This document shows, piece after piece, positions 27,495-44,063 of a stretch of 64,000 nt of DNA. How positions within the stretch are numbered: position 1 is the stretch's first letter; each line of letters opens with the position of its first letter. Location of the stretch: NCBI RefSeq assembly GCF_026241205.1, contig NZ_JAPFQM010000001.1, positions 1,674,001 to 1,738,000 of the forward strand, given 5' to 3'. The notes beneath the pieces were generated by a model. It ran no database searches, had not been told where the DNA came from, and was given only the letters and a program-made list of their open reading frames with translations. The translations under genes and the position numbers were made by a program. This DNA comes from Thermomicrobium sp. 4228-Ro (GTDB lineage: Bacteria; Chloroflexota; Chloroflexia; Thermomicrobiales; Thermomicrobiaceae).

Positions 27495-30400
27495 ATGCGT
27501 TCGCTCTACGAAACGTGCGAACCCCGTCCGGAGGTCCTGCAGGGCGAACTCCGGGAAGAGCTGTTCGCTGCCCGCCTGAAGGACGTGCTCGATGGTGTCG
27601 CCGATCCGGTCTATCAGGATCCGGAGCGATTCTTCGAGAACACGTATCCGACCGAAGGTCTCCGGACCTTGCTCCGTGAGGTCTTGGGGCGGCTGACTGG
27701 CCGGAATCCTGCCGCCAATCCGATCGTCCGACTGGAAACGCCGTTCGGTGGCGGGAAGACGCACAGCCTCATCGCACTGTACCATGCCGTCCGCGGCAGT
27801 CCCGCTGCTGAGCGCCTGGTCGATCCTGGATTGATTCCGGATCCTGGTTCGGTGCGGGTCGCTGGTATCGTCGGATCGGAACTCGACCCGACGACCGGCG
27901 TGCTCCATCCGGACGTAACGACCTACACGCTCTGGGGCGAACTCGCCTACCAGTTGGGTGGTGTCGCGGGATACCGACTCGTCGAAGAGTCGGACCGCCG
28001 GACCAAGGCGGCGCCAGGTTCCGGGCTCCTCGACCACCTGATCGGTGACCGTCCGACCTTGATCCTCCTCGACGAGATCGCGCGGTACCTGCGCGCCGCG
28101 CAAGCGGTGCCGACGGGGACAGGCGAGGGGAACGTCGCCGGCCAGACGATCGCGTTTCTCATGTCGCTCCTCGAGTTCGCAGCGAGCCGGCAACGAGTGG
28201 TCGTGGTCCTCACACTCGCTGACCCGAGCGATGCCTTCGGCCAGGAAAGCGAGCAGCTGCGTGCGCATCTCGCCGAGGCTCGGCGCGTTGCGGCGCGCAA
28301 CGAGCGCGTGCTGACCCCGGCGGCTGAGGACGAGACCGCATCGATCGTCGCGCACCGGCTGTTCCGCACGATCGACCGGCACGCCGCGCAGGAGGTCAGT
28401 CGAGCGTATCTGGCAGCGTACGCGACGGCTGTCGAGCACGGCGCGCCCTTGCCGCACGAGGTGACGACCGCTGCGTATGCGGCCCAGATCGAACGGAGCT
28501 ACCCGTTCCACCCGGAACTCCTGCGCGTGCTGAGCCTGCGTGTCGGGACGATCCCCAACTTCCAGCGCACGCGCGGCGCGCTGCGGCTGCTGGCTCTCGT
28601 CGTGCGCCGATTGTGGGAGCAGCGGCTCCTTCGGTTGTCGCTCATCCATCCGCACCACGTCGATCTGGGCTTCCCTCCGATCGTCGAAGATCTGACCAGT
28701 CGGCTCGACCGGCCGGTGTTCAAGCAGGTCATCGAGGCGGATATCGTCTCGCAGGTGCCCGGCCATCCTGCTCACGCGCAGAGCGTCGACACGGCGTTCC
28801 TCGCCGCTGGTCGGCCGCCGTACGGCCAGCGGCTGGCGACCACCATCTTTCTCCACAGCCTGGTGCACGGCCAGGCTGCCGGTATCCAGAAGCCCACGCT
28901 CTTCGCCAACGTGCTCGAGCCAGGGGACGATCCCGGCGCACTGGAACGCGCGCTCACCGAACTGGTGGAACGGTGCTGGTATCTCGCTGCCGAGCGCGAA
29001 CACTACCGCTTCGGCACCGAGGTGCAGCTCAACAAGGTGATCGCGGACGAGATGGCGGTCGTTCCGGTCTCGCTGGCCAAGGCGAAACTCGAGGAGCGGA
29101 TCCGTCAGATCTGGACGCGTGGTGCGCTCGAGCCGGTCACTTTCCCGCACGAACCGGCCGATATACCGGACGACGCTGGGACACCGAAACTGGTCATCGT
29201 CCACTTCGATGCGGCAACGGCGACAGCGGCCGAGGACGCGCCACCGGACTTCGTCCGTCACCTGTTCGAGTACGCTGGGAGCGCTGGCAGCTACCGTCGC
29301 TACCGGAACAACCTGGTCTTCCTGGTCTGCGATCAGGGCCAGCGGAGCCAGCTGATCGACACGGCCCGCAAGTACCTCGCGATCGAGCGGTTGAACGATC
29401 CCAGCCGGCTCGCCGACTTCACGCAGGAGCAGCAGCGCCGCCTGCGCGAACTGCGCGAGCAGACCGAACTCGAACTGCGGGTCGCGATCACCCGGGCCTA
29501 TCGGTTCTTGTACTACCCGAGCGGCGACCTGGCGCCGGGGCAGTCCCAACTCGCTCGCGAGATCCTGCCGGCGCAAGACCAGGGTACGGTGCGGCGGGCC
29601 CAGACCGATGTCGTCGTCCAAGCGCTGAAGCGGTTGGAGAAGGTGCGCACGAGCGATGACCAGCCGCTCGCGCCAGCCTACGTCCGTGCGCGCGCCTGGA
29701 GCGGGCAACAGGGCAAGGTCAGTACGGAAGAAATCCGCCGCACCTTCGCGCAGCGGGTCAACCTGCCGATCTTGCTCGATCCGAACGTGCTCAAGCGGAT
29801 CATCCGCGACGGCATCGTGAGCGGAGAGTGGATCTATTACGACGCTGCCACCCGCAAGGGCTACGACAAGGACTCGCCCTTGCCGACGGTCGAACTCTCC
29901 GAAGAGACCTATCTCTACACGCCCGAGGAAGCAGCCCGCGTCGGGATCGAGGTGGAACGCCCCAGGCCGAAGCCGAACGGTAACGGCGACAACGGCCAGA
30001 AAATGGCAACGTGCCCGGTCTGTGGGCAACCGGCAGCGCAGTGTGTCTGCGGGATCGTCATCGAGCGGAGGGAACGACCCGTCCTCGAGGCTGCGGGGGT
30101 GGCCCCGCAGGCGTTCCAATCGCTGATCGACCAGGCGGGGGACAAGCGGGTCGAGCGCCTCGCTCGTCTGGAACTCACACTGGAGGCGAGCGGCGCTGCG
30201 GCGGTGCAGGAAATTCGGGCGCTCGGGCTGCTGCTCGCGCAGGTTCCCCGCGCGCGCCTGCGGGTGGATATGCAGTATATCGCTGGATTTTCGGAGGACG
30301 AGCGCGTCACGTTGCAGTTCGCTGGAGGCCTCTCCCGCTGGCAGGCAGTGCGGCAGGTCGTGGAAACGGTGGGTGGGCAGGCCAGCCAGGCAGTGCTGAC

Positions 30401-30548
30401 CGTCACGGTGATCGCCGAGAGCGAGGAGGATGGCTTTTCCGTGGCCGAGGACGTCGTCGGCTTGCGTGACTATGTCGAGCATCTGCCCTTCGGGAAAATC
30501 GCGCTGCGGGCAGAGGCGGTCGAGGACGGAGCGGAGGGGAAGCGGTGA
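27495..30548 (+). CDS. DUF499-type P-loop ATPase (first gene of the candidate defence system)
   Basis: A 1017-residue ATPase. Walker A is ETPFGGGKTH (81-90), Walker B LILLDEIARYL (189-199). The N-terminus LYETCEPRPEVLQGEL and overall length fit the DUF499 family, which is known from genomes to lie beside DUF1156 methylases. A Cys cluster CPVCGQPAAQCVCG (about 839-852) is probably a zinc ribbon, followed by a C-terminal domain of about 160 residues with SEDERVTLQFAGG. The ATG at 27495 follows GAGGAGGGCCG, and the stop overlaps the next GTG as GTGA. The family is proposed to act in DNA modification or defence. The ATPase activity is secure, the pathway is inferred. GC content resembles the host. 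Confidence 0.85.
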   Translation: MRSLYETCEPRPEVLQGELREELFAARLKDVLDGVADPVYQDPERFFENTYPTEGLRTLLREVLGRLTGRNPAANPIVRLETPFGGGKTHSLIALYHAVRGSPAAERLVDPGLIPDPGSVRVAGIVGSELDPTTGVLHPDVTTYTLWGELAYQLGGVAGYRLVEESDRRTKAAPGSGLLDHLIGDRPTLILLDEIARYLRAAQAVPTGTGEGNVAGQTIAFLMSLLEFAASRQRVVVVLTLADPSDAFGQESEQLRAHLAEARRVAARNERVLTPAAEDETASIVAHRLFRTIDRHAAQEVSRAYLAAYATAVEHGAPLPHEVTTAAYAAQIERSYPFHPELLRVLSLRVGTIPNFQRTRGALRLLALVVRRLWEQRLLRLSLIHPHHVDLGFPPIVEDLTSRLDRPVFKQVIEADIVSQVPGHPAHAQSVDTAFLAAGRPPYGQRLATTIFLHSLVHGQAAGIQKPTLFANVLEPGDDPGALERALTELVERCWYLAAEREHYRFGTEVQLNKVIADEMAVVPVSLAKAKLEERIRQIWTRGALEPVTFPHEPADIPDDAGTPKLVIVHFDAATATAAEDAPPDFVRHLFEYAGSAGSYRRYRNNLVFLVCDQGQRSQLIDTARKYLAIERLNDPSRLADFTQEQQRRLRELREQTELELRVAITRAYRFLYYPSGDLAPGQSQLAREILPAQDQGTVRRAQTDVVVQALKRLEKVRTSDDQPLAPAYVRARAWSGQQGKVSTEEIRRTFAQRVNLPILLDPNVLKRIIRDGIVSGEWIYYDAATRKGYDKDSPLPTVELSEETYLYTPEEAARVGIEVERPRPKPNGNGDNGQKMATCPVCGQPAAQCVCGIVIERRERPVLEAAGVAPQAFQSLIDQAGDKRVERLARLELTLEASGAAAVQEIRALGLLLAQVPRARLRVDMQYIAGFSEDERVTLQFAGGLSRWQAVRQVVETVGGQASQAVLTVTVIAESEEDGFSVAEDVVGLRDYVEHLPFGKIALRAEAVEDGAEGKR

Positions 30549-30997
30549 GCGACGATCGGCGATGGCGGTTCCAGCTGCGCGTGCAGCCGCTGGGTGACGA
30601 GGCATACCGCCTGATCGTGCTCCAGCAGCGTCCGGCGAGCAACGGGCGCCGGCCGACCGTCCAGCGGGTCGCCGCACTGGACGGGACACCGCTTTTGGTG
30701 GCGCTCGACCAGGTGCTCGAGTTGCTGCGCCGGGACGGATACCGGAGCTTGCGCGATACCCGAGCGAGCGGCGGCGAGGACCGGATGGTAGCACTCAGCG
30801 AGGCGACTGGCGTGCGGCTCGGGCTGCTCTTCCTCGCCCTCCGTCCGTTGCGGCGGGTCGAGCGGATGGAGCGCGTCGCGGCCGGTGTACGCGCGATGAC
30901 CGACGAAGAGGCGTACTACTGGTTCAGCAAATGCGTGGCGCCTGGTACCGGTTACCGCGCCCGCCGTGCTCTGCGCATCCTGGTCGCGGGGGAATAA
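30545..30997 (+). CDS. Small companion protein of the DUF499 ATPase
   Basis: A 150-residue protein of unknown function, translationally coupled to the ATPase by a GTGA overlap at 30545-30548. The first about 65 residues show alternating hydrophobic strands (WRFQLRVQPL, AYRLIVLQQRP); the second half is helical (GVRLGLLFLALRPLRRVERMERVAAGVRAM) and ends with YWFSKC...ARRALRILVAG. No catalytic motif is seen. A small protein with a similar position occurs in DUF499/DUF1156 loci, so it is likely a structural or accessory subunit of that complex. That is inference from position. Confidence 0.7.
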   Translation: MSDDRRWRFQLRVQPLGDEAYRLIVLQQRPASNGRRPTVQRVAALDGTPLLVALDQVLELLRRDGYRSLRDTRASGGEDRMVALSEATGVRLGLLFLALRPLRRVERMERVAAGVRAMTDEEAYYWFSKCVAPGTGYRARRALRILVAGE

Positions 30998-31146
30998 AGT
31001 ACTATTCAAGCTGCTGTCCTCGTTCCGTAACAGCATTCGATTCGTCTCGTCGTCGGCGCGTTGGCGGAGCCCTAAGGCACTGAGGAGGTGTCGGTCCGCT
31101 ATCGGATGGAAGGATGTCGGATGGTCAGGTCTGGAGGTCGGTTCTC
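30998..31146. other. 149-bp gap between the DUF499 pair and the lower-GC module
   Basis: No gene, terminator hairpin or clear promoter was recognised. Base composition falls here, marking the start of the lower-GC segment. A short direct repeat-like ATCGGATG/GTCGGATG occurs at about 31102-31122. Confidence 0.4.
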
Positions 31147-32040
31147 GTGAGCCATTTGATCCGTATGACCGAAGAGCCTGCCGAGACGAATGGTGACGAG
31201 CAACTGAGCCGGTTCCGGCGAGAGATCGGTGAGGTGATTCGCGAATGCCGTCAGGTCGAGCAGGCAGCTCGGAGCGCTCGTCAGCTCTGGGAAGAGGTGC
31301 TTGCGCTCTTGCCACAAGCGGCTGAACGCCCCTTCGGCCTTCTCGCCAAGCTCGACAAGCTGGAGAGCGTCGTACCCGAACGTGCCGCGCTCGTGGCTGC
31401 GTTGCGTTCCTGGGCTGACACCTTGGCGGAGGAGCAGCTCACGGACTATACCCGATTGCTGCGTCGAATTCTGGGTCCTGACGAGACGGTCGAGGGGCGT
31501 CTCCAGGATGGCTATCGAATCCGCAGCCTGATCGAGGTTCGGGTCGACTATCAAAAATATGAGGCGACCATAGCGACTCCATTCCGTGCGCGTCGACTCA
31601 CTGGTGATATTTCCGTATATGCCGTCGCAGAAGCCATCCGGTCAGAACTCGAGCGGTTATTCGATCGACCGTTCCACGCAGGGCGTTTTGCCAAAGAACT
31701 CTTCGAAGCGTACCAGCTCGCGCTCGTCCAGTCGGGAACTGAACGGAGTCCCGGGGAGCCTGTTCCGATCCTTGCTGTCCACAAATTCGTTGTCGTTCTC
31801 CGGCAGTCACCGAAGGCGTTCCAAAGCGTCGATTCACGGCACTTCCGACCCTATCCGCCTGACGAGTTCGCCGTCGATCTCGGAAGGTTGCTGGCTACTG
31901 GCCAGGACGAGGTCGATGGCTGGCGGCTACGCCTGCATCCGATTCGCAAAGTCAAGGATTCGTTGTACGTCGTGAACTTCGGGACCGGGATCGGGCAAAA
32001 CTACGGATTGCTCTCCTTCCAGCGAGTCCATGTGGGGTGA
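31147..32040 (+). CDS. Unrecognised protein of the candidate defence system
   Basis: A 297-residue protein I cannot place in a family. The N-terminal about 110 residues are rich in charged and Leu residues (FRREIGEVIRECRQVEQAARS, LWEEVLALLPQAA) and probably form coiled-coil helices. A compact C-terminal domain follows, with VDYQKYEATIATPFRARRLTGDISVYAVAEAI and PVPILAVHKFVVVLRQSPKA. The GTG at 31147 follows GGAGGT eight bases upstream; an ATG at 31114 is in frame but lacks a good SD. It ends 5 bp before the first BrxD-like gene start, so the two are probably coupled. GC is lower than the flanking DNA. No nuclease or helicase motif is visible. Confidence 0.65.
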   Translation: MSHLIRMTEEPAETNGDEQLSRFRREIGEVIRECRQVEQAARSARQLWEEVLALLPQAAERPFGLLAKLDKLESVVPERAALVAALRSWADTLAEEQLTDYTRLLRRILGPDETVEGRLQDGYRIRSLIEVRVDYQKYEATIATPFRARRLTGDISVYAVAEAIRSELERLFDRPFHAGRFAKELFEAYQLALVQSGTERSPGEPVPILAVHKFVVVLRQSPKAFQSVDSRHFRPYPPDEFAVDLGRLLATGQDEVDGWRLRLHPIRKVKDSLYVVNFGTGIGQNYGLLSFQRVHVG

Positions 32041-32045
32041 GCTGT

Positions 32046-33302
32046 ATGGAAACACTCAGCCGGAGGGATGCCATAACCATCATCGAGGCGTTGAAGCGTG
32101 GTACCCCGCCACCACCGAGCCTCGCCAGTTACCTGCACGTGGGCCGAGGGCGGTGGGTCGAAGGGATGTGCTGGTATCTGGATGTTGTCCGGGCAGACGC
32201 GCTCTCGGCGGTGCGGTTGATTGCTGGTGACTATGGAAGCGGGAAGACGCATTTCCTCCGAGTAGCGGAGCAACGAGCCTATGAACGCGCGTTCGTCGTC
32301 TCCGAAGTAACACTGACCAAAGATGTTCGACTGGATCGCTTCGAGACAATTTGGAAGAAGATAATGGACAATCTCACACACGAAGATGCAAATGCGCCTA
32401 TGAACGGCATCGAGGAATTATTGAATTACTGGTGTGAGAAGGTTGCGGAATCCGGACAAGTATCGAATGAGCTAGCGAAGTTGAATGCGTTGCGTGGACT
32501 CGATCCGGATTTCCGGCAGGCAATCGGAGGTTATCTCCAGCAGTGGGTCAGGAACGGCGGAAGGCGAGGCGAGCTACTGCCCTATCTACAATGGTTTGGC
32601 GGGGATGCGGTACGCCCACCGGGCGTTCGGGGGCGCATCGACCGTGCCAGTGCGCGTGCCATGCTGCGCTCGCTGATCCTGTTCCTTCGCCATATCGGCT
32701 ACAGTGGGCTGGTGCTGATTTTCGACGAGCTGGAGCTGATTCTTCATCAGCGGGTGAACGTCCGCGATGCGTGCTATGAAGTCGTTCGACAATTTGTGGA
32801 TAATGCTGATAACTTAGCAGGGTTACTTCTAATTTTCTCTATTACGGAACAAATGATTCTGGATACGAGTAGAGGGATTCCGAGTTATCCCGCTCTCTAT
32901 CAACGGATCGGTGGTTTGATTCGATCGTTTTCCGAGTATGACTACCGTTCCGTGTTGATCAACCTCAACCACTTGCCGCTCCGAAAGGAGGAACTCGTCG
33001 AGCTGGCGCGACGCATTCGACAGGTGCACGCGGTAGCCTACTCGTGGCCAGCCGCTGACCGCGTTCGGGATTCGTATCTCGATCGTTTCGCTGAGCACGC
33101 TCTCGCTACCGGAGAAGTCCCTGCACCACGCTTCCTCGTGCAACTCACCGTGACAGTTCTCGATAGTGCCCAGCAGAATCCCCACCTGTCCATCGAGGAG
33201 CTCATACCCTCGAAGAGCGAGATCCTGAAAGAGATTCGTAGTACCGAACGAGGTCGGTATGCTCCGTGGGATGAAGCAGATGTCGCGTTCGGCGCTCGAT
33301 GA
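32046..33302 (+). CDS. BrxD-like P-loop ATPase A (DUF2791-type)
   Basis: A 418-residue AAA/STAND-like ATPase. Walker A is GDYGSGKT (61-68) and Walker B LVLIFDELELI (222-232), followed by a long helical C-terminal half. The order RRDAITIIEALKRGTPP...IAGDYGSGKTHFLR and the acidic Walker B resemble BrxD, the ATPase of some BREX types that is encoded beside the Lhr-like helicase BrxHI. The ATG at 32046 follows GGGGTGAG; GTG 32037 is in frame but has no SD. It overlaps the second ATPase gene by 44 bp. One 60-base stretch inside it (32341-32400) is 25/60 GC, far below the surrounding genome, so it looks recently acquired. Confidence 0.78.
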   Translation: METLSRRDAITIIEALKRGTPPPPSLASYLHVGRGRWVEGMCWYLDVVRADALSAVRLIAGDYGSGKTHFLRVAEQRAYERAFVVSEVTLTKDVRLDRFETIWKKIMDNLTHEDANAPMNGIEELLNYWCEKVAESGQVSNELAKLNALRGLDPDFRQAIGGYLQQWVRNGGRRGELLPYLQWFGGDAVRPPGVRGRIDRASARAMLRSLILFLRHIGYSGLVLIFDELELILHQRVNVRDACYEVVRQFVDNADNLAGLLLIFSITEQMILDTSRGIPSYPALYQRIGGLIRSFSEYDYRSVLINLNHLPLRKEELVELARRIRQVHAVAYSWPAADRVRDSYLDRFAEHALATGEVPAPRFLVQLTVTVLDSAQQNPHLSIEELIPSKSEILKEIRSTERGRYAPWDEADVAFGAR

Positions 33303-34272
33303 GGAGATACCGACCGATCGGCACGCGTGCCGGCGAGCCCTGATCGCTCTCAAAGCCGGGTACCCGCCGCGCGACGCGCTGCGCTATCTGAGCGTTGGAA
33401 TGACCGGTGTCTTGGCGGAAATCGACAATGTTTTGGTGCAGGCGGGCCGTGGTGCGCGAGTCAGACCTCTGGTCGTCAGTGGCGACTACGGTGAGGGAAA
33501 GAGCCATACTTTGCGACTGATCGCGACAGAAGCGGAGCGACAGCACTTCGCCTGGGTCGTCGTGACGCACGACCGCCAACAGAACATCGGCTTGCATAAG
33601 CCCGCCTGGCTCTTCCAACATATCCTGTGGCAACTCCGGTGGAGCTACCCGGCCCTCGACCTTCGCCGATGGGATAGCTGGCTGCACGGTCAACCGGATT
33701 ACAGGACCGATCGCAGCATGCGCCGTCAGCTCCGCGGTTGCTTGGCAGAGTTGACGCAGAGCCTTCGGTCACAGGGGTTTCGCGGCTTCGTCTTGTGCCT
33801 GGACGAGTTGGAGAATGTGGCGCTTTTGGCCGGAAACCAAAGGGCGATCTTCGGAGAGGTTCTCCGTCATTTGCTCGATGGCCCCGAGTCGCATGTCGTC
33901 CTCGTACTAGCCGCGACGTCTGGTCTGAGTGCGGCAGGTCGATGGGGTACCCTCCTTCGCCCTCCAGCCCTGGATGAGAGATCGGCACTGATACTGACGT
34001 ATCGCATCCAGCGGTTGCATAGTGCCGCGTTCGACTGGCGACCGCCGATCGGTCCGGTACCGATTTTCGAGAAGGCTTGGAAGGCCTCTTCGGCTGTACC
34101 CTCTGGGCGCTGGCGTACGTTCGTGCAGAGTGTCGTCATCCACCTGGAGGTGTTGGAGCAGAACGGCTGGCTGCCGACCGAACACGTCTCTCGTCCGGCA
34201 CTTCGAGCGGAAAGCGCGCCGGATGTCCTGTCGCGTATCACCCGGTTCGCTCGCCTTCTCGGCATCCGGTAA
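33259..34272 (+). CDS. BrxD-like P-loop ATPase B (divergent paralog of the preceding gene)
   Basis: A 337-residue ATPase with Walker A GDYGEGKS (75-82) and Walker B VLCLDELENV (178-187). The start region RHACRRALIALKAGYPPRDALRYL aligns in style with the preceding gene's RRDAITIIEALKRGTPPPPSLASYL, and the spacing from Walker A to Walker B is shorter. It therefore appears to be a diverged tandem copy. The ATG at 33259 follows GAGGT and overlaps the upstream gene by 44 bp; ATGs at 33271 and 33280 are alternatives. A heteromeric ATPase pair is a reasonable idea. Homology to DUF2791/BrxD is by eye and less certain than for copy A. Confidence 0.7.
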   Translation: MLRGMKQMSRSALDEEIPTDRHACRRALIALKAGYPPRDALRYLSVGMTGVLAEIDNVLVQAGRGARVRPLVVSGDYGEGKSHTLRLIATEAERQHFAWVVVTHDRQQNIGLHKPAWLFQHILWQLRWSYPALDLRRWDSWLHGQPDYRTDRSMRRQLRGCLAELTQSLRSQGFRGFVLCLDELENVALLAGNQRAIFGEVLRHLLDGPESHVVLVLAATSGLSAAGRWGTLLRPPALDERSALILTYRIQRLHSAAFDWRPPIGPVPIFEKAWKASSAVPSGRWRTFVQSVVIHLEVLEQNGWLPTEHVSRPALRAESAPDVLSRITRFARLLGIR

Positions 34273-34368
34273 TGCGGAGTTCTGGGGTTGTACTCGCGGA
34301 GAAACGCTCGCTGCGGTCGCCAGCGGTTGGGGAGGAGCGCAGCGGCTCGAGCGTCAGCGGTTTGTACC

Positions 34369-34391
34369 GTCGGATGGACCGCATGTCCGAC
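34369..34391. repeat. Inverted repeat before the Lhr-like helicase gene
   Basis: GTCGGA (34369-34374) and TCCGAC (34386-34391) flank an 11-base spacer in the 142-bp gap between ATPase B and the helicase. It could be an operator or chance. Confidence 0.3.
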
Positions 34392-34414
34392 GCAACTAGT
34401 CAGGAGGGCTCTCC

Positions 34415-36565
34415 GTGGTTGGGCGGGAGATGCTGCCGCGCGTGTACGACGCGTTTTTCGGAACGTTCGGCCGACTGCGTCCAGTGCAAGAGCGAGCCAT
34501 CCCGTTGGTCCTCCAGCGCCAGAATCTCCTGATCATTGCCCCGACGGGTTCCGGCAAAACCGAAGCAGTCGTCGCACCACTGGTGGAGATGGCGCTCGAT
34601 CACCCACAGTCGACCTTCGCGCTGTACATCGCACCGACGCGAGCCTTGGTCAACGATCTCGCAGTGCGGTTATCGGAGCGTCTCAGCGCTTGTGGCCTGC
34701 GGCTGGCAGTCCGACATGGCGAGTCGAAAACCGTGCAGGGGCGGGACGCACCGGCGATGATTCTGACGACTCCTGAGTCGCTCGAGGTCATGCTCGCGGG
34801 CAGCGACGACTACGTGACCGCCCGGCTCCGTGAGGTCCAGGCGGTTGTCATCGACGAGACGCACCTGTTCTACGGCACGCCCCGCGGCGTGCAGCTCGGC
34901 TGCCTTCTCGAGCGGTTGAAGCAGTACACGCGACACCCGCTCCAGCGACTGTGCCTTTCCGCGACGGTCGCCGAGCCCGAGCTGGTTGCAGCGTTCTTTC
35001 GCGGGAGCGACGCACCCTTCAGGATCATCAGCGTCCCTGGTGTTCGTGACCTGGTCGTCCATCTCGATGTCTTGGAGTCGGACTCGGTCGAACGACTCGC
35101 GGATATCACCGCGTACTGGTTGACGGAAATCTTGGAGCGACATCGAAAAGTCCTGGTGTTCGCGAATACCCGCGTTCACTGCGACTGGCTCGCCTGGAAG
35201 TTGAGCGAGCGTGTTCGGAACGTTCCTGTGCTCCTCCATTACTCGTCGTTGCACGGGACATACCGCAAGCATGTCGAACGGACCTTCCGTGAGGCATCCC
35301 GTGGCGTCTGTATCGCGACCAGCACCCTCGAACTCGGTATCGATATCGGAGACATCGATGCTGTTGCGATGTGGGGCGCGCCGAATACCGTGACGAGCTT
35401 CCTGCAACGGATCGGCAGGGGCAACCGTCGTTCCGGGACGTGCATCGTCTATGCTGGTTGTCCCGCGTTCTATCCCTCGGGGCGGGACGCCGATCCGACC
35501 TCGCACGCATTGACCTTCGCCGCGCTGACCCACTGCGCCGTGCATGGCGTTCTGGAGAGCGTATCCGTGCCCCGGCATTATTCCGTACTCGTCCAGCAGC
35601 TCCTCGCACTGTGTCACCGATGGGGTGCGGTCGCCGCCGATGGCTTCTTCCGGGTCGTGGAACGTCCCCCAGCATTCGCGACGCTCGAGACATTGGCCGC
35701 CATCCTCGACGGTCTGGCGCAGGCAGGCGTGCTCGAGTTCGACTCCCGCCGTCAGCTCTGGTGGCCGACCGATCGCTTCCATCGCTTGTGGGAGACCGGC
35801 CTCTTCTGGGGGAATATCCCCGAGCAGGTCGAGTCGCTCGTCCTGCGGAAGCGCGGGGAGCGAGACCTTCCGATCGCGGGACTCCCGAGAGAGTACTCGC
35901 GTGGACTTCGTCCTGGAAATATCGTGGTCGTTGCCGGCAAACCGCGGCTGGTACTCGAGGTCAAAGAGACCATCGTGCGCGTGCGCGATCTCGAGGTAAA
36001 CGAGGCCCAGTTCGTCCGCTACTCGACACCGCCGGAACCGACATCGGCCACGGTTGCCCGGGCGATCGCGGATGTCCTGACGATGACCGATGCCGAGCTC
36101 GCCCGGTTACCGATCCGATATACCGAAGCGGCGAGGGAGCGCTTGCGCCGGTGCCGAAGTGTCCTGCAGCCGCTCCTGGCCACGCGCGAGATGGTGGCCC
36201 CGGAGCCGGACGGCCGTTGGGTCGCCTACACGTTCGCCGGGACGAACGCCAACCGGCTCCTGGAACTCTGGCTCCAGAAACATGGAACGCGCGTGCTCGA
36301 TGCCGATGCGTGGCGCGTGTGGTGCGCGAGCGAGCCGCCGCTTCACGTTTTGGCTCGGTGTACGGCTGATGCCTTGGCCTCGCGGGTCCGATCGGAATGG
36401 AAGCGATTCGTGAGGATGGTTCCCTTGCCCCCGGCGTACCGTTTTCTCCCCGAGGAGCTGAAGCAGGAGGAGCTGATATCGGTGCTCGACCTCGAGACCT
36501 GTGCACGACTCTTGCAGGCGTTGCTGGATTCGACCGCCCGGACGGGCGTCACGCACGAGAGATGA
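34415..36565 (+). CDS. Lhr-like DEAD-family helicase (BrxHI-like)
   Basis: A 716-residue superfamily 2 helicase. Motif I is APTGSGKTEAVV (42-53), motif II VIDETHLFYG (DETH at 147-150), motif III LSAT (181-184), motif VI QRIGRGNRR (about 330-338). After about residue 370 there is a C-terminal part resembling Lhr-family helicases and the BREX helicase BrxHI. The GTG at 34415 has CAGGAGGG six bases upstream. Beside two BrxD-like ATPases this recreates the BrxD-BrxHI pair, likely acting on DNA. It lacks the very long C-terminus of full Lhr. Strand polarity and substrate are unknown. Confidence 0.88.
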   Translation: MVGREMLPRVYDAFFGTFGRLRPVQERAIPLVLQRQNLLIIAPTGSGKTEAVVAPLVEMALDHPQSTFALYIAPTRALVNDLAVRLSERLSACGLRLAVRHGESKTVQGRDAPAMILTTPESLEVMLAGSDDYVTARLREVQAVVIDETHLFYGTPRGVQLGCLLERLKQYTRHPLQRLCLSATVAEPELVAAFFRGSDAPFRIISVPGVRDLVVHLDVLESDSVERLADITAYWLTEILERHRKVLVFANTRVHCDWLAWKLSERVRNVPVLLHYSSLHGTYRKHVERTFREASRGVCIATSTLELGIDIGDIDAVAMWGAPNTVTSFLQRIGRGNRRSGTCIVYAGCPAFYPSGRDADPTSHALTFAALTHCAVHGVLESVSVPRHYSVLVQQLLALCHRWGAVAADGFFRVVERPPAFATLETLAAILDGLAQAGVLEFDSRRQLWWPTDRFHRLWETGLFWGNIPEQVESLVLRKRGERDLPIAGLPREYSRGLRPGNIVVVAGKPRLVLEVKETIVRVRDLEVNEAQFVRYSTPPEPTSATVARAIADVLTMTDAELARLPIRYTEAARERLRRCRSVLQPLLATREMVAPEPDGRWVAYTFAGTNANRLLELWLQKHGTRVLDADAWRVWCASEPPLHVLARCTADALASRVRSEWKRFVRMVPLPPAYRFLPEELKQEELISVLDLETCARLLQALLDSTARTGVTHER

Positions 36566-37049
36566 GCCATCGCGCGCGGGCGCAACGACAGGACCTGAGA
36601 GAGTATCCTCCTCGCCGTGGTGGTGGCACGTCGGTCGTGAAAAGTGGCGTCAGCCGCTCGTCTCTCGTAGGAACTCCGACGACCGAGGGAGGAGCTGCGG
36701 GCGATGGCTCGCCGTTGGACGCGAGTGTGGATCAGCTCGGGCCAGCCGACGTGTCCTCGGACGGCCGATGACATACTCTGTGTCGTCCTGTCTGTTCTGG
36801 CAGGATCTTGGTCAGGTTCCCTGGATGTGCGGAAGCCGACGCGCCGTGCGATCCATCGGTCGTCCGGTTGCCGGAGGGGACAACGATCGGCAGGATAAAG
36901 GGGGATCGATGGAAGTCCGGATCGCTTCCGATGGAAATCGAGGCCGACACGTCGTCGCGCTTCTCGAGTTCATCTTCGAACCAGCGTGTGCTGCGGTGAC
37001 TCTGATGCTTGTGAAGGACGACACCAGCGAGGATCAGGCTCGATAGACG
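36566..37049. other. Gap with only weak small ORFs between helicase and methylase genes
   Basis: No recognised gene. Three short frames are worth recording: ATG 36562 (overlapping the helicase stop as ATGA; 69 codons, low complexity) to 36771; ATG 36704 (SD GGGAGGAG; 64 codons) to 36898; and ATG 36909 (SD AAAGGGGG; 45 codons) ending at 37046, three bases before the next candidate. None shows a domain. The DNA is compositionally poor for coding and could be a decayed gene. Confidence 0.4.
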
Positions 37050-37469
37050 ATGAGCGACCGGATAGTGCAGGAGATGAAACAAATTGCCGAGATCTTGGGC
37101 AAAATCCATACGGTTCTGCAGAGACCGGAAACCCCTGTACGGTTCTCCGGTTCGCTGATGAACCACACGGACTGCAACGTGGTCGTCCCCGTCGATGCGC
37201 CATACTGCGTCGAGCCTTCCCTGCGACTTCCGTCGCTCTTTTCGCGCACGGTCGTAAGGAAGGTCGCGGGCGTGTTCCAGTGCGACGAGACGGGACCCCG
37301 GCGTCCTGAACTGCCGGCCCTGGTCGGGAATCTCTCTCAGGTGGCGAACGACCTCGTCCACGAGGGGCCGACGAGCGTCGAGCGCGTCGGGGTCATACGC
37401 GAGGGAGCCCGTCCTGGATCGATGCTCGTGCCGACGGGGATCCATCCGCGATGGTTGGAGGGCAGATGA
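37050..37469 (+). CDS. Possible small protein translationally coupled to the methylase
   Basis: A 139-residue frame starting MSDRIVQEMKQIAEILGKI. The N-terminal 25 residues look like an amphipathic helix. The rest is not recognised and has no catalytic motif. Support comes from its TGA overlapping the methylase ATG as ATGA at 37466-37469, a common coupling signal in this window. Against it, there is no strong SD, and a long antisense frame (36732-37499) covers the same DNA. The gene could encode a short accessory subunit or be noncoding. Confidence 0.35.
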   Translation: MSDRIVQEMKQIAEILGKIHTVLQRPETPVRFSGSLMNHTDCNVVVPVDAPYCVEPSLRLPSLFSRTVVRKVAGVFQCDETGPRRPELPALVGNLSQVANDLVHEGPTSVERVGVIREGARPGSMLVPTGIHPRWLEGR

Positions 37470-40402
37470 ATCGGGAAACTGCTCTGGCCAGTCGCCCACT
37501 CCTCATCGAAGACTGGCTGCCGATCCAGGAGGTAGGGATCGAGGCGCGACGTGAGAACAGCACTGGCCAGCATCCCCCGCCCAACCGCCTCCACGTCTGG
37601 TGGGCGCGGCGGCCGCTGGTGGTCAGCCGCGCGGCGGTGCTGGCGAGTCTCCTCCCCGCCTGGCAGCCCGACTGGCCCGAGCCGCTGCGCCAGCGCTTCC
37701 CCACCCGCGACGCCTACCACGCCTGGGTGCGCTGGTTGCTGGGGATCCACGGGGAATTAGCCTCTGCCTGGAGGACGATCCAACAGGCGAGGGCGATAGG
37801 AAAACGTATCGACAACCCTTTCACGCACGGGAGAGCTTTTACTTTCAACTTGTCTGACCGTGAAGCCGAAGAACTCTCGAGTGTCTTCCAAGCTACATGG
37901 GAGAGCCCGGAAATTGCTGTGCTGGATCCGACCGCTGGCGGAGGATCTATCCCGCTCGAAGCGCTCCGTTTGGGCTTAACCGTTCACGCCAACGAGCTGA
38001 ATCCGGTGGCGAGCGTAATCTTGCTTGCTACTCTCGATTATCCGTCTAGGTTCGGTGACGATTTGGTCACTGACCTGGTACGATGGGGGCACAGGCTGAG
38101 TGAGTACGTACGTGCCTCGATAGGCAATTTCTATGTAGGAATGAACTCGATAGAGGAGCCGTTAACCTACCTCTGGGCGCGCACGGTCGCCTGCCCGCAG
38201 ACCGGCAAGCCCATCCCCCTCTCCCCCAACTGGTGGCTGCAGCGCGACGACCGTGCCCGCGTCGCCGTGCGGCTGCTCGCCCACCCCGACTGGCCCACCT
38301 GCCGCTTCGCGATCGTGCGCGGCCGCGAGGCCGACGCGCTCGGCGACCAGGGGACGATCCGCCGCGGCGTCGCCGTTTCCCCCTGGACGGGTGACGTGGT
38401 CGACGACGAGTACATCAAGCGCGAGGCCCAGGCCGGGCGGATGGGCCAGCAGCTCTATGCCGTCGTCGTCAAGACCCCGCGCGGCGTCGACTTCCGGTTG
38501 CCGAACGAGGCCGACCTGGCGGCTGCCGCCGCGGCCGAGCAGGAACTCACCCGGCGTCTCCCCGGCTGGCTCGCCCGCGACCTCGTACCCGACGAGGAGA
38601 TTCCGGAGGCGAGCAGCGACCCGCGACCGCGCCGCTACGGCATGACCCGCTGGCGCGACCTGTTCGCCCCGCGCCAGCTCCTGGCGCTGGGAACGGCGGT
38701 CGAGGCGCTGCGCGCGCTCGAGCCGGCGATCCGGGCGGAGCTCCCGCCCGACCGGGCTCGCGCTGTCGTCACGTACCTCGCGCTCGCGCTCGACAAGCTG
38801 GCGGACTGGAACTCACGGCAGTGCACGTGGCACCCGAATCGCCAAGTGCTTGGGCACACGTTTCAACGCCACGACTTCAGCATGAAGTGGAGTTTCGCCG
38901 AGATGGCGGTGGTCGCCGCCGGCAAGGGGCTCGACTGGGCGATCGACCAGGTGGTCGATGCCTACCGCGGCATCGCCCGCTTGGCCCAGCCTACCCGGCT
39001 CCCGCTGTGGCAGCGCACCGGTCGGCCGCCGGTCGAAAGGTTGCGCATCACTCAGGGGGACGCGCGCCACCTCGGTCATCTCGCTGACGGTTCCGTCCAC
39101 TTGGTCTGCATCGACCCGCCGTACTACGACAATGTCCAGTACGCCGAGCTCTCCGACTACTTCTACGTCTGGCTCAAGCGGACGGTCGGCCACCTCTATC
39201 CCGACTGGTTCGCGAGGCCGCTCACCGACAAGGACGCCGAGGCGGTCGCCAATCCGGTGCGCTTCGCGGGGCTGGGTGGGAGCCGCCCGGCCCGCGAGCT
39301 GGCCCGCCAGGACTACGAGCGCAAGATGCAGGCGATCTTCCGGGAGTGCAGCCGCGTCCTGCGGCCCGACGGTGTCCTCACCGTCCTGTTCACCCACAAG
39401 CAGGTCGAGGCCTGGGACGCCCTGGCGACGGCGCTCATCGAAGCGGGCTTCCAGATCGTCGCCTCCTGGCCGGTGCATACCGAGAGCGAGCACAGCCTGC
39501 ACCAGGCCAAGAAGAACGCAGCCCAGAGCACCATCCTCCTCGCCTGCCGCAAGCGCCCGCCGGGCGACGGGCCGGTCTGGTGGGACGAGCTGCGCGGCGT
39601 GCTGATCCGGCGGGTGCGCGAGCGGGCGCAGGAGCTGGCTGCGCTCGGGATCGGCGGGGTCGACCTGCTCCTGGCCGCCTTCGGGCCAGCGCTCTCGGTC
39701 ATCTCGGCGCGCTGGCCGGCCCTGACCAGCGAGGTCGATCCGAAGACCGGGAAGCCGCTCGTCCTGCGGCCGGAGACAGCGCTCGATCTAGCTCGCGAGG
39801 AGGTGCTGCGCTTGCGCCGCGAGCGGCTCCTGCACGGGCAGAGCGCACGGTTCGATGCCGCGACCGACTGGTACCTCTTCGCCTGGGATACCTTCCGGGC
39901 ACGCGAGTTCCCGGCCGACGAGGCGCGCAAGCTGGCCCTGGCGGTCGGGCTCGACCTCGATGCCGACATCATTCGCGGCGCGCGGCTGGTCGAGCGACGC
40001 AGCAATACGGTACGGCTGCTGGAGCCGAGCGAGCGGGTCCGTCGCCGGGCGGTGGATCCCGGGGCGACGTCGTTCGCGCGCCTGGTCGATGCCGCCCACG
40101 CTGCGCTGGTGCTCTACGCTGAGGACGGAGCGGGCGCCTGCCGGGAGTTCCTGCGGCGGGCCGGACTCCTGCAGTCGTCGGAGTTCCGCCAGCTGCTCCA
40201 GGCCTTGCTGGAGGCGGTCCCGCGCACGCGGGGGAGGGAGGGAACCTTCCTGCTCCCGGAAGCGCAAGTGCTCGACGCCATGCGGCTCGCGCTCTTCCCG
40301 GAGCTCGAGGTGCCGCCCGAGCCGGAACCGGTCGCCCGGGAGGTCCAGCGGTCGCTCTTCGACGAGGCGAGCGGCGAGGAGGACGACGAGGCAGTGGAGT
40401 GA
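37466..40402 (+). CDS. DUF1156-type DNA methylase (predicted N6-adenine or N4-cytosine)
   Basis: A 978-residue methylase of the DUF1156/COG1743 type. RLHVWWARRPL (41-51) is the family signature. The SAM-binding motif is DPTAGGGS (154-161), and the catalytic DPPYYD (550-555) is of the D/N-PP-Y/F class of amino-methyltransferases. A Cys-rich segment, VACPQTGKPIPLSPNWW, marks the zinc-ribbon position, but only one Cys remains. ATG 37466 has GGAGGG just upstream. It is the modification partner expected beside DUF499; with the system's ATPases and helicases it may mark self DNA. Composition is mosaic: codons about 96-235 are low in GC, the rest high. Confidence 0.86.
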   Translation: MNRETALASRPLLIEDWLPIQEVGIEARRENSTGQHPPPNRLHVWWARRPLVVSRAAVLASLLPAWQPDWPEPLRQRFPTRDAYHAWVRWLLGIHGELASAWRTIQQARAIGKRIDNPFTHGRAFTFNLSDREAEELSSVFQATWESPEIAVLDPTAGGGSIPLEALRLGLTVHANELNPVASVILLATLDYPSRFGDDLVTDLVRWGHRLSEYVRASIGNFYVGMNSIEEPLTYLWARTVACPQTGKPIPLSPNWWLQRDDRARVAVRLLAHPDWPTCRFAIVRGREADALGDQGTIRRGVAVSPWTGDVVDDEYIKREAQAGRMGQQLYAVVVKTPRGVDFRLPNEADLAAAAAAEQELTRRLPGWLARDLVPDEEIPEASSDPRPRRYGMTRWRDLFAPRQLLALGTAVEALRALEPAIRAELPPDRARAVVTYLALALDKLADWNSRQCTWHPNRQVLGHTFQRHDFSMKWSFAEMAVVAAGKGLDWAIDQVVDAYRGIARLAQPTRLPLWQRTGRPPVERLRITQGDARHLGHLADGSVHLVCIDPPYYDNVQYAELSDYFYVWLKRTVGHLYPDWFARPLTDKDAEAVANPVRFAGLGGSRPARELARQDYERKMQAIFRECSRVLRPDGVLTVLFTHKQVEAWDALATALIEAGFQIVASWPVHTESEHSLHQAKKNAAQSTILLACRKRPPGDGPVWWDELRGVLIRRVRERAQELAALGIGGVDLLLAAFGPALSVISARWPALTSEVDPKTGKPLVLRPETALDLAREEVLRLRRERLLHGQSARFDAATDWYLFAWDTFRAREFPADEARKLALAVGLDLDADIIRGARLVERRSNTVRLLEPSERVRRRAVDPGATSFARLVDAAHAALVLYAEDGAGACREFLRRAGLLQSSEFRQLLQALLEAVPRTRGREGTFLLPEAQVLDAMRLALFPELEVPPEPEPVAREVQRSLFDEASGEEDDEAVE

Positions 40403-40409
40403 GGTCGCG

Positions 40410-43400
40410 GTGGGCTGCTTACGGGCGTACCCGTTCCGCATCACTTACGGTCCCGCGGACGACCGGCTGCACGAGTTCTACTTGCCGGCGCTGGAGCGGA
40501 GCGTGGCCTACGACCGTTCGGCCGGATTCTTCTCCAGTTCGGCGCTCGCTATCGCTGCTGCCGGTATCGCCCGGCTGATCCAGAACGGCGGCCGGATGCG
40601 CCTGCTGGTCGGGGCGGACCTGCAACCGGAGGACGTCGACGCGATCGTCGCGGGGGAGGAACTCGCCGCGGTCGTCCGACAGCGCCTGCTGGCCCGGCTG
40701 ACGACGCCCGAGGACGAGCTGATGCGGGACCGGCTGGCCGCGCTGGCCTGGATGGTGGCGGAAGGGCTTCTGGAAGTCCGCGTCGTCCTCCCGTGCGATG
40801 CGACCGGCCGCCCGTTACCCGCCGAGCGAGCCGAAGAGTACTTCCATGCCAAGGAAGGCGTCTTCACCGACGCGCACGGTGACCGGATCGCCTTCAGCGG
40901 CAGCGTGAACGAATCGGTTCACGGTTGGCAACACAACTACGAGCAGTTCGCCGTCTACTTCTCTTGGGACACCAGCCGACCGTATCTCGAGCAAGTCGTG
41001 CACCGCTTCGAGCGGTTGTGGACGAACGCGGAGCCCGGCTGGATCAGCCTGCCCCTTCCCGAGGCCGTCCGGGCTGAATTGCTGCGGTACCGGCCCTCGG
41101 CGCCCCCGGTGCGGGACCCTCTGGAACGGACGGTCGGTGTGCGGGAACAGCGAGAAGGCTATACGGTCGAGCGGGGCGACGCTCGGGCGGTGCTGCTGGC
41201 CCGTTTCCTGCGGGACGCGCCGCTCCTGGTCGGGGCCGAAGGTCTCGGCGTCGCGACGGCGGCGATCCAGCCGTGGCCGCACCAGCTGCGCGTCAGCCGG
41301 GCGTTGATCGAGCGGTTTCCGGAGCGGTTCTTGCTGGCCGACGAGGTGGGGCTGGGCAAGACGATCGAGGTCGGGCTGGCGCTGCGGCAGCTCGTCCTCG
41401 ACCGGCGCGTGCAGCGGGCACTCCTTCTGGTACCGCACAGCGTCATCCGCCAGTGGCAGGAGGAGCTGTACGAGAAGTTCTGTCTCGATGTCCCGCGCTA
41501 CGAGGACGGGAAGTTCTGGTCCGTCCGGGGAGGAGCCTGGGAGCCGCGCACCGCGAATCCGTTCGCCAGTGAGCCGGTCTTCCTCGTCTCGAGCCAGCTG
41601 GCGAAGCGACGCGATCGCAGCGCCGACGTGCTGGACGCTGGCCCGTGGGACCTCGTCGTCGTCGACGAGGCACACCACGCGCGGCGCGGCGGGTTCGAAC
41701 GCGGCCTGGACCAGCCGAACCGCCTGCTGGCGCTGCTGCGCCAGCTGAGCGAGCGCACCCGTGGCCTGTGGCTGCTTTCGGCCACGCCCATGCAGCTGCA
41801 TCCGATCGAGCTGTGGGACCTGCTCGTCTTGCTCGGACTCGGCGGGCGTTGGGGTGCCAGCCCGAGCGCGTTCCTCCGCTTCTACGAGGAACTCCGGCGC
41901 GGCCCCGCCGAGCTCGATTGGTCCTTCGTCCTCGGGCTGGTGCGGGAAGAGGTCCGGCTGCAAGGGCTCGATCCGGTCTTCGCCCGGGAGGCCGAGAAGG
42001 CATTGGACGTCGTCGGCTGGGAGGAGGTACGCCGGATCCTGTCCGGCGAATCCCAGCGGTCGCCGCATCACCTATCGCCGCCGCAGCGGCAGTGGCTGTT
42101 CAGCGGACTCCGGCGCCATACGCCGCTGCGGCGCGTGATGTTCCGGCACACGCGTGCGCTCCTCCGCCGGTACGTCGAGCGGGGATTGCTGGAGGCCCAG
42201 ATCCCGACGCGCCACCCGCGACCGGTCTGGATCGAGATGAGCCCAGTCGAACGGGAGCTCTACGAGCGGATCGAGGAGTACACGAGCCAGTTCTACGGGC
42301 GGTACGAGGCGGAGCGACCCGGTCTCGGCTTCGTGATGACGGTGTACCGCCGGCGGTTGACGTCCAGCTTTTTCGCTGCCCGCTGTAGCCTGGAACGTCG
42401 GTTGCAGTATCTGCGGCAACAACGGCCGGATCTGGGGATTTCGGACGAGGACGTCGAGGACGAGGAACTCGAGCTGGACATCAGCGAAACGCTGGCATCG
42501 TTGCCGGAAGGTCTGGCCCAGGCCTACCGGGACGAGATCGCCTATCTCGAGGATTTCGTGGCTGAGCTGGCGCGTCTCGGCGAGGACTCGAAGTTCGCCT
42601 GCCTGCACGAGCAGCTGCAGGAGTTGTTCCGCCGTCACGAGACGGTCGCTGTCTTTACCCAGTACACCGACACCATGGACTACCTCAGGGAGCGCCTCGT
42701 CGCCGTGTATGGCAGCCGGGTGGCCTGCTACTCGGGCCGGGGCGGCGAGCGCTGGCGGGGCGGCCATTGGGTGCCGGTGACGAAGGAGGAGATCAAGAAC
42801 GCCTTCCGCGAGGGGCGTGACGTGACGATCCTGCTCTGCACCGATGCCGCGAGCGAGGGGCTCAACCTGCAGACCTGTGGCGCACTCGTCAACTACGACC
42901 TGCCCTGGAACCCGATGCGGGTCGAGCAGCGGATCGGTCGCTTCGATCGGATCGGCCAGCGGTATCCCCGGGTCGATATCCTGAACTTCTTCTACGCCGA
43001 CTCGGTCGAGGCGGAGATCTACCGGCGTCTCAGCGACCGGATCGACTGGTTCGAAACGGTGGTAGGCCCTCTCCAACCGATCCTCACGCAGGTGGCGCGC
43101 AGCATCCAGCGCGTCGCCTTGCAGCCGCGGCAGACGCGCGAGCAGGTGCTGCGGGACGAGATCGCCGAGATCCAGCGGCGTCTCGACGCGCACGAGCAAG
43201 CCTCGCTCGACCTCGACGCTACGCTCTACGACGAGACCTTCCGCGAGACCATCGGGACACCGGTTTCGCTGGCCGATCTCGAGCGGGTCGTGCCCACGCT
43301 CCCTGGCCTGGCCGAGCGGTTCCGGCCGCATCCGGAGATCGTTGGGGCCTGGCTGGTCAGCTGGCATGACCGGCTCGAGGCAGTCACCTTCGATCCGGAG

Positions 43401-44063
43401 GTGTACGACCGCCACAGCGGCACGGTCCGCTTCCTGACCTACGGTGATCCGTTCTTGCTGGAACTGCTCGAGCAGGTGGACGCGAGCGGTAGCGCGCCTG
43501 CACCCGGCATCGTGCGGCTGGAACACGCTGGGCCACCACCCCGTTGTGGGTACTACCGGGTCGAGGGTGATCGGGCCGTCTGGGTGCGCACACTGAGCGA
43601 GTTGGAAGAGGCGCAGCCGACCGGAGCGGCGACCGTGGAACCGCCAGGGTTGGCTGCAGCCGAGGCGGACTTTTCCGCACGGCTCGCCAGGGAGCACGAC
43701 CGGTACGCCGAGCACGAGCGGCGCCAGCGAGAGCTGCTCGACACGCAGCTGCTCGAGCGGGCGCGCCAGGTGCTGGTCGAAGCGGCCCTGGTCGAAATCG
43801 CGCTCGGTCGCAAGCCCGCGTTGGCCGGCGGGCACGACCCATTGACGTTCGGCAGAGAAGCGGTGCGCGGGTTGGCGCGCCACGGGTATCCGTTCGCACC
43901 GCTGCTCCGCTTGGTCGGGAGCCAGCAGCCGCTCGAGGCACGGGAGGACGACCCTCACTGGGAAGAACTCCGTGCGCTCTCGGTCGAGCAACTGCAGGCC
44001 CGCTGGCGGAGCTTACGCCGAGAGGCCGAAGAGCTCGTGCACCGCTTGGCTCCGCCCCAGTGA
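40410..44063 (+). CDS. PLD-domain SNF2-family helicase
   Basis: A 1217-residue fusion. The N-terminal about 190 residues are phospholipase-D/nuclease-like (YDRSAGFFSSSALAIAAAG, FHAKEGVFTD, FSGSVNES), though only a single HKD-like motif is visible. SNF2 motifs follow: Walker A ADEVGLGKT (310-318), DEAH (about 420), SATPM (about 457), and motif VI QRIGRFDRIGQ (about 840). A charged C-terminal third includes coiled-coil stretches (EHERRQRELLDTQLLERAR). It resembles helicase subunits of DISARM-like and DUF1156-linked loci. GTG 40410 has GAGG five bases upstream and lies 7 bp after the methylase stop. It may translocate on and cut DNA; nuclease activity is unproven. Confidence 0.85.
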   Translation: MGCLRAYPFRITYGPADDRLHEFYLPALERSVAYDRSAGFFSSSALAIAAAGIARLIQNGGRMRLLVGADLQPEDVDAIVAGEELAAVVRQRLLARLTTPEDELMRDRLAALAWMVAEGLLEVRVVLPCDATGRPLPAERAEEYFHAKEGVFTDAHGDRIAFSGSVNESVHGWQHNYEQFAVYFSWDTSRPYLEQVVHRFERLWTNAEPGWISLPLPEAVRAELLRYRPSAPPVRDPLERTVGVREQREGYTVERGDARAVLLARFLRDAPLLVGAEGLGVATAAIQPWPHQLRVSRALIERFPERFLLADEVGLGKTIEVGLALRQLVLDRRVQRALLLVPHSVIRQWQEELYEKFCLDVPRYEDGKFWSVRGGAWEPRTANPFASEPVFLVSSQLAKRRDRSADVLDAGPWDLVVVDEAHHARRGGFERGLDQPNRLLALLRQLSERTRGLWLLSATPMQLHPIELWDLLVLLGLGGRWGASPSAFLRFYEELRRGPAELDWSFVLGLVREEVRLQGLDPVFAREAEKALDVVGWEEVRRILSGESQRSPHHLSPPQRQWLFSGLRRHTPLRRVMFRHTRALLRRYVERGLLEAQIPTRHPRPVWIEMSPVERELYERIEEYTSQFYGRYEAERPGLGFVMTVYRRRLTSSFFAARCSLERRLQYLRQQRPDLGISDEDVEDEELELDISETLASLPEGLAQAYRDEIAYLEDFVAELARLGEDSKFACLHEQLQELFRRHETVAVFTQYTDTMDYLRERLVAVYGSRVACYSGRGGERWRGGHWVPVTKEEIKNAFREGRDVTILLCTDAASEGLNLQTCGALVNYDLPWNPMRVEQRIGRFDRIGQRYPRVDILNFFYADSVEAEIYRRLSDRIDWFETVVGPLQPILTQVARSIQRVALQPRQTREQVLRDEIAEIQRRLDAHEQASLDLDATLYDETFRETIGTPVSLADLERVVPTLPGLAERFRPHPEIVGAWLVSWHDRLEAVTFDPEVYDRHSGTVRFLTYGDPFLLELLEQVDASGSAPAPGIVRLEHAGPPPRCGYYRVEGDRAVWVRTLSELEEAQPTGAATVEPPGLAAAEADFSARLAREHDRYAEHERRQRELLDTQLLERARQVLVEAALVEIALGRKPALAGGHDPLTFGREAVRGLARHGYPFAPLLRLVGSQQPLEAREDDPHWEELRALSVEQLQARWRSLRREAEELVHRLAPPQ

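Follow-up and report, generated by a model that had tools for sequence, protein, structure and literature searches.

Two old, separate ATPase lineages kept side by side ahead of an Lhr-like helicase in a conserved four-gene module of Thermomicrobium

The stretch of DNA analyzed here (the window) comprises 64,000 nucleotides of contig 1 of the 3.07-Mb genome of Thermomicrobium sp. 4228-Ro. It carries four adjacent plus-strand genes, designated U, A, B, and H in that order, which are the subject of this report. Gene U (31114..32040) is the first gene of the module and encodes a protein of 308 amino acids (aa). Gene A (32037..33302) encodes a BrxD-like/SngB-like AAA+ ATPase of 421 aa; it has a GTG start at 32037, and the alternative first ATG at 32046 is the start given in an earlier reading of the DNA (the original prediction). 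Gene B (33259..34272) encodes a second, divergent BrxC/D-family ATPase of 337 aa, and is separated by a gap (34273..34414) from gene H (34415..36565), coding for a 716-aa Lhr-like SF2 helicase related to BrxHI and SngC (PADLOC BrxHI 331 bits, SngC 276 bits; Pfam DEAD and Helicase_C). Two tandem BrxD-like ATPases ahead of an Lhr-like helicase had been recognized in the original prediction, and this arrangement holds, the end of B being exact; that prediction overlooked the fourth member, U, and the Hma operon in which the genes lie. A and B represent two distinct Orc/Cdc6-like AAA+ ATPase lineages that diverged long ago and are kept side by side.

Both ATPases belong to one family, as originally predicted. 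A matches PF10923 (BrxC_BrxD) over positions 2–412 of 414 (206.5 bits, E 9e-61; PADLOC BrxD 171 bits, SngB 132 bits) and B matches it at 53.3 bits (E 2.8e-14; curated cut-off 22.2 bits), these being the only PF10923 matches in the whole genome. The predicted Walker A pattern GDYG(S/E)GK(T/S) is present as GDYGSGKT in A (32226..32249, plus strand, offset 63 residues) and GDYGEGKS in B (33481..33504, plus strand, offset 74 residues), Walker B reads FDELE in A and LDELE in B, and both motifs are intact in both proteins. On the NCBIfam BrxD equivalog NF033438, A scores 166 and B 51 bits, short of the 350-bit cut-off, and true BrxD loci (n = 4) score 630–656 bits; judged by these profiles, neither A nor B is BrxD proper. 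Profiles built locally distinguish the two ATPases in every locus. With the A and B models, respectively, HRbin28 A reaches 597 and 90, and HRbin28 B 80 and 428, such scores being partly circular because some of the scored loci were used to train the profiles.

The ATPase part of B has 57–60% identity to its nearest relatives. A sequence search of the PDB with B gave nothing convincing. The predicted structure of a B relative from locus L045 (predicted local distance difference test, pLDDT, 87.7) has structural matches over residues 77–476, including archaeal ORC2 (Z 16.5, 260 residues, root-mean-square deviation, rmsd, 3.3), a Cdc6/Orc1 heterodimer chain (Z 15.3), and BrxC (Z 12.6, 308 residues, rmsd 4.4), at a sequence identity of only about 10–15%. 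B is thus modeled as an Orc/Cdc6-like AAA+ fold. The suspicion that B might come from an unrelated ATPase family is not borne out, given its PF10923 score above the cut-off, the Orc/Cdc6-like model of its relative, and the placement of both ATPases in the same tree.

Conservation of the module was scored for U, A, B, and H in 25 genome loci found through B as query, the presence of B being therefore given. U orthologues lie ahead of A in 19 of the 25 loci, where all four genes run U-A-B-H along a single strand, mostly a short distance apart or overlapping; the window has the same arrangement. Five other loci start within 3 bases of the contig start (ABH in three, BH in two), and L057, which carries AB, starts 361 bases from the contig start, and no match to H was seen over 3.4 kilobases (kb) downstream of it. 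A profile of U has 10 hits among 400 genomes of the phylum (7 strong and 3 weak), and A and B adjoin U in all seven strong ones. Since the same pair adjoins the same helicase in many genomes, the tandem is not due to chance, and U-A-B-H is almost certainly a conserved four-gene functional unit. In locus L042 (10694–16768), three consecutive open reading frames (ORFs) of BrxC/D-family ATPases, all on long branches, stand ahead of an Lhr-like helicase.

Hosts of the loci found through B include Chloroflexota groups, Thermomicrobiaceae, Acidobacteria, and a Bacteroidia metagenome-assembled genome (MAG); one further locus is titled Actinomycetota yet bears an Acidobacteria scaffold name. At phylum level, the module is thus placed in Chloroflexota, Thermomicrobiota, Acidobacteriota, and Bacteroidota, besides a single plasmid from a cyanobacterium. 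Relatives of the window genome compared here are Bacterium HR28 of the same genus (G006) and a Thermomicrobiaceae MAG of the same family (G016). Among 72,556 plasmid records, window B hits only a plasmid of the cyanobacterium Aulosira laxa. Plasmid searches with U and with the L045 B, and a search of genome contigs with window B alone, gave no result, and in viral contigs searched with the B alignment, 113 stretches fit the pattern and none was confirmed.

The age of the A/B split was addressed with a 71-row tree including A, B, sibling A, sibling B, intermediate (x) rows, SngB, and BrxD. The sibling system (L136–L141) has tandem BrxC/D-family ATPases, a short A followed by B, and a U-like first gene. 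All 20 B, the 6 sibling B, and two of the three intermediate B form one group of 28 rows (support 96/81), with a wider B-side grouping of 29 rows supported at 91/68, and A, sibling A, SngB, and BrxD fall outside the B group. A single clade uniting sibling A with sibling B is rejected by the approximately unbiased (AU) test (p 2e-8), which puts the A/B split before the divergence of the two systems. A and B did not arise by local doubling of BrxD; their lineages are separate and older. A recent duplication of A into B within the module was tried and rejected on the 71-row tree (A and B as one clade, AU p 2e-6), but the same clade is not rejected (p 0.405) in a 48-row tree from which sibling and long rows were left out (23 of 71 in all: 12 from the sibling system, 7 intermediate (x) ones, and the A and B rows of L035 and L130).

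Neither Walker A nor the Walker B acid survives in any of the 6 sibling A, both are kept in 6/6 sibling B, and in the Lhr-type system both Walker motifs are intact in 20/20 A and 20/20 B. Loss of catalysis in one lineage while the pair persists is what an obligate hetero-oligomer predicts. In hhalign, the first gene of the sibling system aligns with U as a homologue (probability 97, E 9e-12, 238 columns), and four of the six sibling loci have a clustered gene of ~190 aa and a clustered helicase gene; both of the sibling helicase genes scanned are SNF2, one of them with an Mrr domain. Because of the homology to U, U-A-B can be viewed as a core taking either an Lhr-like or an SNF2 helicase.

The U protein itself has no match in Pfam, NCBIfam, or PADLOC, nor has U of the Aulosira laxa plasmid any in PADLOC, and a sequence search of the PDB with U gave nothing convincing. 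The AlphaFold2 model of U (pLDDT 87) comprises a coiled coil, a small alpha/beta domain, and a winged-helix-like C-terminus; in VIA comparisons, the winged-helix regions of ORC1 and of Cdt1 match it at a middling level (Z 5–7).

Many B proteins carry a small accessory barrel. Among 33 non-sibling B, excluding that of the window, the barrel is N-terminal in 25 and C-terminal in three, and none was found in five; it was not detected at significant E in any of 12 A, any of 6 sibling B, or window B, the 34th non-sibling B. The barrel profiles used in these counts were trained on 13 (N-terminal) and 3 (C-terminal) of the positives. The N-terminal profile matches UvrD (E 7e-4) and PcrA (0.48) in the PDB, its single sequences having weak Pfam PcrA_UvrD_tudor matches under the cut-off. 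The C-terminal profile matches Spt5 (E 6e-8) and archaeal NusG/Spt5 (1.3e-4), and the C-terminal barrel of HRbin28, scanned alone, passes the Pfam KOW cut-off. The PcrA domain is described as an RNA-polymerase interaction domain (PMC5397179). The presence of a like domain at two unrelated positions on B suggests repeated recruitment for one purpose, which we infer to be polymerase binding. The barrel is a common, not a defining, trait of the module.

Window B, with 337 aa vs. 412 aa in its nearest relatives, is 75 residues shorter and lacks the C-terminal KOW, which close relatives still encode where the window has the gap between B and H. No KOW remnant is recognizable there: none was found by tblastn against 34001–37500, and an alignment of the tail scores 10.4 (200 shuffles: mean 5.7, standard deviation 2.5, maximum 18.7). 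The difference in length between A and B noted in the original prediction is therefore real and in part peculiar to this genome. With the ATPase part of window B intact, the barrel may be dispensable, or else decay of this copy may just have begun.

The module lies within a plus-strand Hma operon (27495–44063), occupying the slot from the end of the DUF7680 gene (30997) to the start of the methylase gene (37451). The operon begins with a DUF499 ATPase (HmaC; 27495..30548; PADLOC HmaC 357 bits, Pfam DUF499) and a small DUF7680 protein of 150 aa (30545..30997; PF24728, E 1.1e-36), and continues after the module with a DUF1156 adenine methylase (HmaB; 37451..40402; PADLOC HmaB 295 bits, Pfam DUF1156) and a PLD-SNF2 helicase with an approximate start (40356..44063; NF042964 400 bits; Pfam SNF2, Helicase_C, and weak PLDc_2). 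HmaC, HmaB, and the SNF2 helicase, which together identify an Hma system, are thus all present. Between H and the methylase (36566–37450), no convincing gene was found in 885 bases. Opposite-strand ORFs of 255 and 258 aa occur in this interval in the window and in locus L033, in single copy in the genome, and a plasmid search with the minus-strand ORF at 36735–37499 gave no match. An ARAGORN tRNA-Arg call within the methylase ORF (39780–39871) is probably false, and scans for promoters and terminators gave chance levels only.

The module occupies the Hma slot in two genera, represented by the window and L033, which are the only two of 12 module loci searched with Hma proteins where Hma adjoins it. 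Six other Hma loci spanning the slot have only 256 or 291 bases there (two loci) or ~0.6–5.1 kb without the module (four loci); a seventh, L162, is cut and was not counted, and the methylase position in L157 comes from a separate search. In Thermomicrobiaceae, the slot (window 30998–37450; L156–L161) varies: it may be nearly empty or contain short ORFs, an Mrr_N protein, or U-A-B-H. A genome of the same genus has the module elsewhere and only the 291-base gap in its Hma operon. In HRbin28, the module lies apart from the Hma operon and is preceded by a 141-base DUF7680 match (72%, E 1e-13); the fragment (L034:12655–12794) resembles the DUF7680 3' end, as if the stand-alone module had formerly been in an Hma operon. 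DUF7680 was considered as a fifth module gene and rejected, as it comes after DUF499 in Hma loci without the module.

Two other settings involve different defence operons. In the Bacteroidia genome KatS3mg026 (BPGW01000002.1; L067:5295–14605), U-A-B-H stands between cas7-cas5 and cas3 of a type I cas operon (Pfam Csa2, Cas5, Cas3). On the conjugative Aulosira laxa plasmid3 (AP018310.1; L164:2651–24287), it directly follows, on the same strand, a BREX (bacteriophage exclusion) locus with the gene order BrxE, BrxA, BrxC, PglX, PglZ, BrxD, BrxHI-like helicase. Because BrxD and a BrxHI-like helicase are already encoded within that locus, the module does not replace BrxD.

The preferred reading, which proceeds by analogy and has roughly even chances as a whole, is that of a self-contained four-gene module in which A and B would be a heteromeric Orc/Cdc6-like loader for the helicase H. 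U-A-B-H is probably an undescribed anti-virus system, directed most likely against phages or plasmids. A and B would form a mixed oligomer like Orc and Cdc6 subunits, and a physical A-B heteromer is likely; the idea of a heteromeric or split-function motor in the original prediction receives indirect support from the conserved pairing and from the absence of Walker motifs in 6/6 sibling A. Together with U and its winged-helix-like tail, the oligomer would bind target DNA and load or license H, a role of A and B in helicase loading being plausible, with the balance tilting slightly against it. H would then translocate, unwind invader DNA, and block its replication or expression. The barrel of B may anchor the complex on nucleic acid or on RNA polymerase during transcription; as a polymerase tether specifically, it is a tentative and somewhat doubtful proposal. 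As the module has no recognized nuclease, any cutting would come from the neighboring system where it is nested.

A still broader proposal, to be regarded as speculative, would make U-A-B the core of an undescribed defence superfamily. In it, the heteromeric Orc/Cdc6-like pair and its partner would place interchangeable helicases on invader DNA, either Lhr-like ones or SNF2, the latter alone or with an Mrr nuclease. The Lhr branch would be tied to transcribing RNA polymerase via Tudor/KOW domains acquired on two or more occasions, at opposite ends of B, and the cassette would be added in or behind Hma, type I CRISPR, and BREX operons. The maintenance of two unlike family members together, one of them Walker-less in the sibling system, offers a direct test of hetero-oligomeric helicase loading, the barrel of B suggests a link of defence to transcription, and a cassette that nests within these three kinds of operon, or follows them, would amount to a portable helicase add-on.

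Several observations weigh against the loader and defence readings. The deep branching order among A, B, SngB, and BrxD is not resolved by the trees. The A-B distance correlation of 0.99 over 18 pairs is also predicted by shared descent alone, and, as both window ATPases look catalytic, only the sibling system displays a division of labor. Foldseek found nothing for U at E < 0.001 (best E 0.16). The barrel, missing in window B and five other non-sibling B, cannot be essential, and binding to RNA, DNA, or ribosomal partners also occurs among Tudor and KOW folds. The defence reading itself draws on family resemblance and three nestings, and several module loci stand alone beside housekeeping genes.

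Such stand-alone loci, e.g., L045, where the module comes just after what we take, from reading of the sequences, to be rpsP and rimM, would suit a housekeeping complex for DNA repair or replication restart, as would the Lhr-like helicase, the Orc-like ATPases, and the RNA-polymerase-type domains. This explanation is very unlikely in view of the patchy distribution (10 of 400 phylum genomes hit by the U profile, 7 strongly), the presence of the module within or behind defence operons of three unrelated types, and the G+C content of the U-A-B-H genes (0.556–0.642), which is lower than that of their surroundings. The same difference, vs. 0.667–0.70 in the host Hma operon, makes it quite unlikely that the module is an accessory layer of that operon within one composite system. 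The shared slot in two genera speaks for such a layer, but Hma adjoins the module nowhere else among the loci searched, and the same-genus genome keeps the two apart.

Alternatively, B might be a decaying or regulatory duplicate now being lost in the window, leaving A and H as a working SngB-SngC-like motor. The short window B, with neither KOW domain nor remnant and with its low PF10923 score, would fit, but its Walker motifs are intact, its ATPase part retains the identity to its relatives given above, B accompanies A in 7/7 strong U loci, and the degenerate member in the sibling system is A, not B; this explanation is unlikely. Placement in BREX, as in the original prediction, either as a locus or as a remnant with doubled BrxD, is hardly tenable. 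The family names and the position behind a complete BREX locus on the cyanobacterial plasmid favor it, but PglZ (PF08665) has no match in the window genome, G006, or G016, so that the BREX combination of PglZ with BrxC/PglY is lacking, neither ATPase reaches the BrxD equivalog cut-off, and the plasmid BREX locus already possesses a BrxD and a BrxHI in addition to A, B, and H. It was dropped after the PglZ search and the BrxD comparison.

The four-gene module was not found described in the open-licence literature searched. Orc/Cdc6 initiators pair unlike ATPase subunits to load a helicase and share the predicted fold of B; with no origin or replicative helicase involved, the likeness is an analogy and not a family claim. 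Among Hma/DUF499 BREX-related systems, the DUF499, DUF1156 methylase, and PLD-SNF2 helicase genes enclose the module in the window, but it is inserted between DUF7680 and the methylase and occurs elsewhere without Hma. Shango consists of the TerB protein SngA, the ATPase SngB, and the helicase SngC (PMC10250203). There too, a BrxD-like ATPase stands directly ahead of an Lhr/BrxHI-like helicase, but the first gene encodes another protein (L081, L082). A and H of the module match SngB (132 bits) and SngC (276 bits, 24–715 of 720), B standing between them. Unlike Shango, with one ATPase and a TerB protein (PMC10250203), the module has two ATPases, and its first gene does not encode a TerB protein, U having no Pfam match and an hhalign probability of 0.1 with TerB proteins. 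For BREX, BrxD has been presented as an ORC-Cdc6 ATPase that may load BrxHI, with helicase loading proposed for the BrxD-BrxHI dyad and the role of BrxD called uncharacterised (PMC12839542). The dyad has the same ATPase family and helicase type as the module, and its BrxD is without an extra domain as described there (PMC12839542), whereas B of the module usually carries a barrel. The module furthermore lacks PglZ, BrxC, and PglX and has, in addition, U and a further ATPase lineage. The closest known kinds are Shango and the BrxD-BrxHI dyad, and since a defining feature of each is absent here, the module is a variant of that kind.
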